Below, in pieces: positions 23,451 through 31,862 of a DNA stretch of 32,079 bases. The translations under genes and the position numbers were made by a program. Each line of letters begins with the position of its first letter. The first letter of the stretch is position 1. Where the stretch lies: positions 1 to 32,079 of the forward strand of contig JAPLDB010000130.1 of NCBI GenBank assembly GCA_026391975.1. Reading direction: 5' to 3'. The notes under the pieces are model-generated. The model saw only the letters and a list, made by a program, of their open reading frames with translations, was not told the DNA's origin and did not search any database. Source of the stretch: Bacteroidota bacterium (lineage in GTDB: Bacteria > Bacteroidota > Bacteroidia > AKYH767-A > 2013-40CM-41-45).

Positions 23451-24881
23451 CTATTTCTTCCTTCTTCCTTTCAGAATTGTATAAAACGAACGGCTTCTGA
23501 TCTCTTCCAGTGTAAGACCTGTTGCAAGTGCTTCTTCTTCCGATATCGCTCCGCAGTTCAATGCCTTTAAAAAATAATTCAGCAAACCCTGTCCTGTTGC
23601 TGCATCATCAAAAATATCTCCGCTCAATGTTGCTTGCGCAGATCGTTCAACGAAATTTTTCAAACGGGCTGCTGCATCTTCATAGCTTTCCAGAAAGAAC
23701 GTATAGGTTGCTGCATATCGCATTGGCAACTGTGCAGGATTTAAATCCCAACCCTGGTAAAAGCCGTTGATCAAAGAATGCATGGTGTGTTCATAAGCCA
23801 TTTTCCAGGCATTGTGCACGACATCCCGGTTTTCTTTTTCCTGTTCGGGAGTAAGGTTGTCGCCACGGTGAGGACCAACGGGCATTACATTGGTTGCGCC
23901 ATCGCTGAGCATGATACCTGTTCCACCCAAAGCCACGCGCGTCATATGATGTGCGAAGTCACAAACGGGATGACCCATGGTCTGGTATTTTGCTGTGATG
24001 TTGCATGAGGCAGTGTAATCGTATGTTCCGAAATGAGCAGCAATGCACCTGCCTTTTCCGGCATGAATGAATTTGAGCAATGGATTTTTTCCCTCCGCAT
24101 CCATTACTGCTTGCGTTGCTTCCACCATCATTTCCATTTTCAAAGTCCCCGCAGAAAGCTGATTTTTCTTTTCAATGATTTCAAAAAGCTTTACCAATGC
24201 CTCGATCTGCTCCGGAATTGTAACCTTGGGAAGCATTACAACGAAGTTATCAGGAAGCTTTCCTTTTGTTTTTTCAAGCAAGGTTGTGAGGAAAATATCG
24301 AGTGTGCGAACGCCCCTGTATTTCAGGTCTTCTGTAAAAGGTTTGATGCGTATGCCAATGAAAGGAGGAAGCGAGTTGTTTTTCATTCCCAGGGCGACTT
24401 CTCCTGCTGCCTGAACTGCTGTATTGTCTTCTTCATTATCGGGCCGGTTTCCAAAGCCGTCTTCGAAATCAATTCTGAAATCTTCAATGGCTTCAGTTTT
24501 TAGCTTCCTGAGTACTTTATTGTATACGGAATAGGATAGCCATGCATAATGTTTCTTCCTTTCTGCTTCAGTCATGCCATCAAGCATTGCAATGATCGAA
24601 GCAATGTCTTTTTGAGAAGAGGGGAGATGCTGATGCCCGGTATGACCGAGTATCCTTGCTAATACTGTGAAGTCAGGGGAGTAGGTGATCAGGTTTTTTA
24701 CAGCGACTTTCGACATTTTTTCTGCTGTATCATGTGAGAAAAGATTGGCACCTCCATATACTGTATGCACCGGTTGTCTGTCGGGCTTGTCTCCCGGATA
24801 TGTTTTTTGAAACGCAAGATTAGAAACCTTCAGTTCATTCAGTATCGCATCCTGCTCTTGTTGTGGTATTGATAATTCCAT
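23451..24881 (-). CDS. DUF6986-like protein (CitE/HpcH/malate-synthase superfamily)
   Basis: 476 aa with DFRIDFEDGFGNRPDNEED, IGIRIKPF, MLPKVTIPEQIEAL, KMEMMVEATQAV, HFGTYDYTAS. Confidence 0.75.
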   Translation of the reverse strand: MELSIPQQEQDAILNELKVSNLAFQKTYPGDKPDRQPVHTVYGGANLFSHDTAEKMSKVAVKNLITYSPDFTVLARILGHTGHQHLPSSQKDIASIIAMLDGMTEAERKKHYAWLSYSVYNKVLRKLKTEAIEDFRIDFEDGFGNRPDNEEDNTAVQAAGEVALGMKNNSLPPFIGIRIKPFTEDLKYRGVRTLDIFLTTLLEKTKGKLPDNFVVMLPKVTIPEQIEALVKLFEIIEKKNQLSAGTLKMEMMVEATQAVMDAEGKNPLLKFIHAGKGRCIAAHFGTYDYTASCNITAKYQTMGHPVCDFAHHMTRVALGGTGIMLSDGATNVMPVGPHRGDNLTPEQEKENRDVVHNAWKMAYEHTMHSLINGFYQGWDLNPAQLPMRYAATYTFFLESYEDAAARLKNFVERSAQATLSGDIFDDAATGQGLLNYFLKALNCGAISEEEALATGLTLEEIRSRSFYTILKGRRKK

Positions 24882-30722: not shown

Positions 30723-30866
30723 CAATTGTAGGTATTCTTCCTGCATTTTGTAAATTAATTTATACCACCATACCGTGCGTTGCGAAGAACTCGCTGAAGG
30801 TTGTAAAATTTGGGGAGAGGAGCACCAACTGTGTGGCAGAAGGCTTCTGATTATTATCTTCGCTCC

Positions 30867-31862
30867 ATGCACCAGCTTTCTCTCTGGAAATTCATTGTCC
30901 AAAAATTAACCTTCCATCACCCTGTCATCCTCTTGTGCGTGGTGGAAAGCAATGGCAGCAGTCCGGGCAGACAAGGTTTTAAAATGGCAGTTTCGGAAAA
31001 TGAAATGGTTGGTTCCATCGGCGGTGGCATCATGGAACATAAGTTTGTGGAGCTCGCAAAAGAAAGACTACAGCAGGGTTCTTCTGCTTCATTCATCAGA
31101 AAACAATTTCATCAAAAATCGGCTGCAAAAGATCAGAGCGGAATGATCTGTTCAGGTGAGCAAACGGTTTTACTTTATCTTCTTGCTGAAAAAGACCTTC
31201 CTGTTATTCATCGAATAGTTTCGGCACTTGAAAATAACAATACCGGACTTTTGAAAATTACTTTTTCTGAGTTTGAATTTGTTGATTCAAATTATCAGGA
31301 AGATGATCATGGTTTTAATATGCGATCTGAAACCGATTTTACATATACAGAACGGATCGGTTTCAAAAACCACCTGTACATCATCGGTGGCGGCCACTGT
31401 GCCTCGGCGCTTTCAGAGCTGATGAGCGGAATGGGTTTTTATATTCATCTCTTTGAGGAGCGCGAAAACCTCAATACCATGATTGAAAATAATTTTGTAC
31501 ATGAAAAAATAATGGTGAATGACTATTCCGAATTAGCTGCTTTAATTCCTGATGGTAATTCCCACCCGGCGGGTCGCGCAGCACCCGCTGGGTGGGATAG
31601 ATACCTAGCCGTCATGACCTTCGGTTACAGAACCGACGACATAGCGGTACGTGCGCTTGCTGATAAAAAGCTCAGATACCTCGGTGTGCTTGGAAGCGAA
31701 TCAAAAATGAAACAGCTTTTTAATGATTGGAGAAAAGATGGAATTTCTGAATCATGGTTGAGTACCATTCATGCTCCAATCGGCATTCGAATTAAAAGTG
31801 AAACTCCTGAAGAAATTGCTGTCAGTATTGCAGCGCAGATCATTAATATAAAAAATGCCTAA
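30867..31862 (+). CDS. xdhC: XdhC family xanthine dehydrogenase accessory protein
   Basis: MVGSIGGGIMEHKFVE, HLYIIGGGHCASALSELMSGMGF, RYLGVLGSESKMKQLF; ATG at 30867 (MHQLSLWKF) more likely than 30810. Confidence 0.93.
   Translation: MHQLSLWKFIVQKLTFHHPVILLCVVESNGSSPGRQGFKMAVSENEMVGSIGGGIMEHKFVELAKERLQQGSSASFIRKQFHQKSAAKDQSGMICSGEQTVLLYLLAEKDLPVIHRIVSALENNNTGLLKITFSEFEFVDSNYQEDDHGFNMRSETDFTYTERIGFKNHLYIIGGGHCASALSELMSGMGFYIHLFEERENLNTMIENNFVHEKIMVNDYSELAALIPDGNSHPAGRAAPAGWDRYLAVMTFGYRTDDIAVRALADKKLRYLGVLGSESKMKQLFNDWRKDGISESWLSTIHAPIGIRIKSETPEEIAVSIAAQIINIKNA
31560..31597. repeat. 38-bp near-perfect palindrome inside xdhC
   Basis: TCCCACCCGGCGGGT (31560-31574) - CGCGCAGC - ACCCGCTGGGTGGGA (31583-31597): 14 of 15 arm positions pair. 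Confidence 0.9.

Follow-up and report, generated by a model that had tools for sequence, protein, structure and literature searches.

The nearest known system to the element analyzed here is REP/RAYT (REPtron), specifically RAYT group 4, which corresponds to tnpA-Y1 subclass 2.4 (PMC6006769, PMC8266576). REPs located inside genes have already been described (PMC3733652), REPs in frame within the tnpA-REP gene itself characterize subclass 2.4 (PMC6006769), and the TnpA-REP of E. coli cuts and rejoins hairpin single-stranded DNA in vitro (PMC8266576). A palindrome within the gene xdhC, in a window of 32,079 nucleotides (the whole stretch of DNA that was analyzed), was compared with these systems. 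It is highly probable that this palindrome is a low-copy REP-like element that was mobilized by the genome's own RAYT and came to lie, with the frame kept, in a surface loop of XdhC.

The host gene, xdhC (30867..31862, forward strand), encodes a maturation factor of xanthine dehydrogenase/aldehyde oxidoreductase and was identified by the Pfam domains XdhC_C and XdhC_CoxI (PF13478, 1e-30; PF02625, 3e-13), with additional NCBIfam matches to NF045664 and TIGR02964 that were both below the curated cut-offs. The ORF was listed from a TTG at 30810, the earliest in-frame ATG is at 30867, and residue numbers were counted from the W at 30834. In an alignment with homologs, all family-invariant XdhC residues were present and the gene was intact except for the insert; judged by these retained residues, xdhC looks functional. 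The subunits of a xanthine dehydrogenase (2Fe-2S/FAD and molybdopterin, assigned by Pfam), which is presumed to be the client of XdhC, are encoded on the same contig (16976..20677, forward strand) as part of a purine-catabolism set that also includes a urate oxidase-like protein, HIU hydrolase, OHCU decarboxylase, allantoicase, and an amidohydrolase resembling allantoinase. A DUF6986/HpcH-like protein (3e-187) is encoded at 23454-24881 of the window, amid the genes for urate and allantoin degradation.

The REP-like palindromic element (31560..31597, forward strand) lies in frame within xdhC and was recognized as a hairpin, as an insertion absent from homologs, and by two sister copies. Its 38 bases read TCCCACCCGGCGGGT-CGCGCAGC-ACCCGCTGGGTGGGA and form a left arm (31560..31574), an 8-nt loop (31575..31582), and a right arm (31583..31597), all on the forward strand; the 15-bp arms contain one mismatch, a G.T wobble that is conserved in every copy of the palindrome. 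The outer TCCC of the left arm is specific to this copy and the inner ACCCGGCGGGT is common to the other copies, the inner ACCCGCTGGG of the right arm is identical across all three copies in the genome, and the loop is the same in the copy next to msrB and in all three hairpins flanking the RAYT gene of genome G002 (see below). An earlier note had reported a 15-bp/15-bp inverted repeat with an 8-nt loop, far richer in GC than its surroundings; the coordinates and sequence that it gave proved exact, and the GC content was 79% in the 38-nt hairpin versus 40% for the remainder of xdhC. The folding energy of this strand was -38.3 kcal/mol (z = -5.05), and none of 200 shuffled sequences was equally stable. 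No other hairpin in the 32-kb window combined arms of 15 bp or more with one mismatch or none, and no such hairpin occurred in 12 first-order Markov replicas of the window. A search for repeats using exact seeds missed the element, in which exact seeds do not exceed 8 nt, and an Rfam search of the window gave no match. There are no stop codons in any of its six reading frames.

Codons 31560-31595 read SHPAGRAAPAGW, placed between ...IPDGN and DRYLAVMTFGYRTD. In the alignment, the insert accounted for a net gain of exactly 12 aa just ahead of the (V/A)VMTFGY strand, and it was absent from all 14 subfamily members compared (39-54% identity) and from all 19 more distant homologs; the closest XdhC compared was 54% identical, the genus being represented by a single genome. 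Removal of the 12 residues gives the loop length of most homologs. An insertion of approximately 12-13 aa relative to related XdhC proteins was thus correctly anticipated in the earlier note, and a loop of equal length, which would have spoken against an insertion, was found in none of the 33 homologs, all of which have a loop shorter by 12 aa. The AlphaFold2 model places the insert (residues 243-254) in a loop region of the Rossmann domain (31555..31616, forward strand), between a helix at 231-237 and the AVMTFGY strand at 255-261, in agreement with the previous proposal that the palindrome had landed in a loop with the frame kept. The pLDDT was 55 for residues 241-250 versus a mean of 83 overall, a low value of the kind that a surface loop would be expected to give.

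The genome to which the window belongs (G000) is a 3.6-Mb draft of 239 contigs. A BLAST search of this genome identified a copy at C198:16195-16224 (forward orientation, E = 1e-7) that matches the xdhC copy at 29 of its 30 core bases, among them the whole loop, and begins at the stop codon of msrB. Approximately 155 nt beyond this copy is the start of an ORF of 209 aa (G000:C198:16379-17008), the only RAYT gene found in the genome, and 132 nt past its stop is a third, inverted copy (C198:17141-17191, reverse strand) in which the loop has been swapped for a longer one with a small hairpin of its own. Two of the three copies thus flank the RAYT gene in opposite orientations, and the xdhC copy is the only one inside a gene. 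Because the RAYT gene sits between two inverted copies, the palindrome belongs with RAYT/REP. By inference, the location of two of three copies within 160 nt of the sole RAYT gene of a 3.6-Mb genome is not due to chance (order 1e-8). The earlier note had stated that the absence of any other copy in the genome, together with conservation of the residues, would count against a mobile palindrome; the two further copies are both at the RAYT gene. The msrB copy (L054:4189-4232) was observed to be a hairpin of 18 bp that carries A- and T-tracts and lies right on the stop codon of msrB, and it may double as a bidirectional terminator of msrB.

The pattern CCCRGYGGGT-N-ACCCRCYGGG, with both loop sizes allowed, gave three copies in the genome, that of msrB at C198:16196-16223 (forward strand), and none for the reversed control, and in 60 relatives it gave one match (G049), which has an unrelated loop and was put down to chance. 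A strict pattern including the outer CCC/GGG gave no matches across the genome contigs, and a looser arm pattern gave little or no excess over the control in the same genome and no comparable hairpins. A 20-mer around the loop was also tried against genome contigs; its scattered matches, nearly all in GC-rich genomes among the matches listed, were judged to be chance. The RAYT protein was identified by matches to NF047646 REP_Tyr_transpos (2.3e-15; 56.7 of the 80 bits required by the curated family model) and PF01797 (5.7e-4; 20.4 of 23 bits), both below cut-off, and by the HUH motif NHYH and the motif YVHQNP. The HUH-Y spacing of 89 aa and the similarity of YVHQNP to the 2.6 motif are pointers to subclass 2.4 or 2.6. 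Full-length homologs of this protein were found across the class.

The nearest RAYT homolog (53% identity) is encoded in G002, a genome of the same family and another genus, where two direct hairpins upstream and one inverted hairpin downstream of the gene read CACCCGGCAGGT-CGCGCAGC-ACCTGCTGGGTG. Compared with the hairpin described here, the loop and the G.T wobble are the same and one G-C pair has been replaced by a compensatory A-T pair; therefore, RAYT and hairpin travel and change together. Six exact and two degenerate copies were present in G002, none of them within a recognizable host gene, and several have 30-40 nt of tail in common. RAYTs more distant than that of G002 have other palindromes. 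At the G002 loci (L189-L196), the hairpin was seen to lie within a longer unit, with a conserved CCACCA/CTGCCA before it and the shared tail after it, and one pair of hairpins brackets an apparent truncated Y1 transposase of a second type.

Among the RAYT loci of the class, an internal hairpin was present at a near-constant position in 19 of 33, and it shared at least 9 nt with a flanking hairpin in 9 of these 19 loci versus 103 of 462 cross-locus comparisons. No internal REP was detected in the RAYT gene of the xdhC-bearing genome, unlike in these 19 relatives. In-frame palindromes after the HUH motif were observed in the RAYT genes at L184, L205, L207, L208, L211, L215, L221, and others, and they are frequently cognates of the palindromes that border their own gene, though the stems vary among loci. 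In G036 (L181:56-1008), seven hairpins of the form CCGCGAGGTC-TTA-GACCTCGCGG, set at even distances of approximately 156 nt from one another, adjoin a RAYT homolog.

The proposed origin is a single insertion of one copy into xdhC on this lineage. A REP-like single-stranded DNA hairpin would have been recognized by the RAYT encoded on C198, a TnpA-REP-type HUH transposase, and, by analogy with TnpA-REP in vitro (PMC8266576), this enzyme would have cut and rejoined the hairpin, with the RAYT locus as the likely source and xdhC as the recipient. The net gain of 36 nt without visible target duplication is consistent with transfer of hairpin single-stranded DNA and would account for the retention of the frame. 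An element that is stop-free in six frames would be tolerable on landing in a gene and, with a site in a surface loop, would probably leave XdhC able to fold and work, so that the insertion may have been near-neutral. Several observations weigh against this proposal: the closest XdhC compared is only 54% identical, the RAYT scores fall below the family cut-offs, the GT[AG]G foot is missing, the copy number is low, and the genome is a draft. In the outermost 4 bp of the stem, moreover, the xdhC copy diverges from its sister copies, and the comparison therefore does not fix where the element ends. These outer extensions pair, and are unrelated in sequence (TCCC/GGGA in xdhC and AAAAGTA/TACTTTT at msrB). 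It is conceivable, if rather unlikely, that on landing the REP core favors, or itself generates, inverted repeats in its flanks; this would imply either that it inserts into hairpin loops that already exist or that the flank is copied by fold-back, and such a rule was not found described for RAYTs in the REP/RAYT literature surveyed.

Other explanations were considered for the same observations. A classical MITE or an IS200/IS605 element could have left the palindrome as a relic; it would then have been mobilized by some other transposase encoded in the genome, and the RAYT would be a bystander. The genome does encode a second Y1 transposase, an IS200-like TnpA at C209:218-541, and a hairpin without visible target duplication also fits IS200 behavior, but the hairpin at the border of the C209 transposase is a different one (CCCACGGT-TTAA-ACCGTGGG), and the proximity of two of the three copies to the RAYT gene, together with the same loop around the homologous RAYT gene of G002, makes such a relic quite improbable. 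A further alternative is an origin within xdhC itself, by template switching or by snap-back synthesis, where the likeness to the other copies would be due to convergence or recombination: 29 of 30 bases shared with another locus, including a non-palindromic loop of 8 nt, are very unlikely to have arisen in place, and this origin was given almost no credence, although some local extension is possible given that the outer pairs TCCC/GGGA are not in the other copies.

The hairpin might also have been retained for a function in xdhC, either in the mRNA, as a hairpin that adjusts translation, or in the protein, as a peptide loop used by XdhC. Its great stability in the message (-38 kcal/mol) and the intactness of xdhC within a purine-catabolism cluster would suit this explanation, which was nevertheless considered very doubtful given the absence of the insert in all 33 homologs compared, the low-confidence, floppy loop in the AlphaFold2 model, and the lack of a T-run for termination. 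A role of the xdhC copy as a terminator was rejected based on its mid-gene position and the sequence after the hairpin, which contains no T-run. Insertion of a RAYT-mobilized, REP-like element remains the preferred reading.

The xdhC insertion is a clear and rarely documented case in which a normally 'extragenic' and putatively mobile repeat has turned protein-coding. It connects an in-frame coding palindrome with a RAYT that can be identified in the same genome and with a family of cognate hairpins in a second genus, so that a single enzyme and a single DNA hairpin would suffice to test the old question of how such palindromes get into genes and leave them intact. REP palindromes can supply new protein sequence in small pieces that leave the frame undisturbed, which has been little documented in this lineage.

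Like the REPtron, the element is a short imperfect hairpin with a conserved mispaired base (a 15-bp stem with a G.T wobble), inverted copies flank the RAYT gene, the hairpin family is specific to its RAYT, and an in-frame insertion occurs in a coding loop. The transposase belongs to the HUH/Y1 TnpA-REP family and has a variable stretch (89 aa) between the HUH and Y motifs, and palindrome and RAYT co-vary between genomes. Unlike the REPtron, the copy number is low (three in 3.6 Mb; six exact and two degenerate in G002), the hairpin is GC-rich with an 8-nt loop, and its own RAYT has no detected internal REP. Unlike canonical GTAG/CGTC-tagged REPs, the 5' foot has neither GT[AG]G nor CGTC (flanks AATTCCCACCCGG, AAAAGTAACCCGG, and TAACGAACCCGG); the GT[AG]G foot is also absent around nearly all related RAYTs, and the element is therefore REP-like by architecture and enzyme rather than by tag. 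Intragenic GTAG/CGTC REPs (PMC3733652) similarly consist of a whole REP in an ORF, with the frame kept and approximately a dozen residues added to an unrelated protein, but here the tag is absent, the host is xdhC, and a cognate RAYT was identified in a Bacteroidia-type genome. The analogy with Rickettsia palindromic elements (RPE, per PMC3733652) drawn in the earlier note is apt for an in-frame palindrome in a housekeeping protein; it does not extend to family kinship, since the other copies point to RAYT/REP, and no sequence relation is claimed. RPE families have many members inside genes, whereas here a single copy lies in a gene and the other two are at the RAYT gene. There are published examples both of intragenic REPs and of REPs in frame within RAYT genes, and the xdhC case adds a further one.
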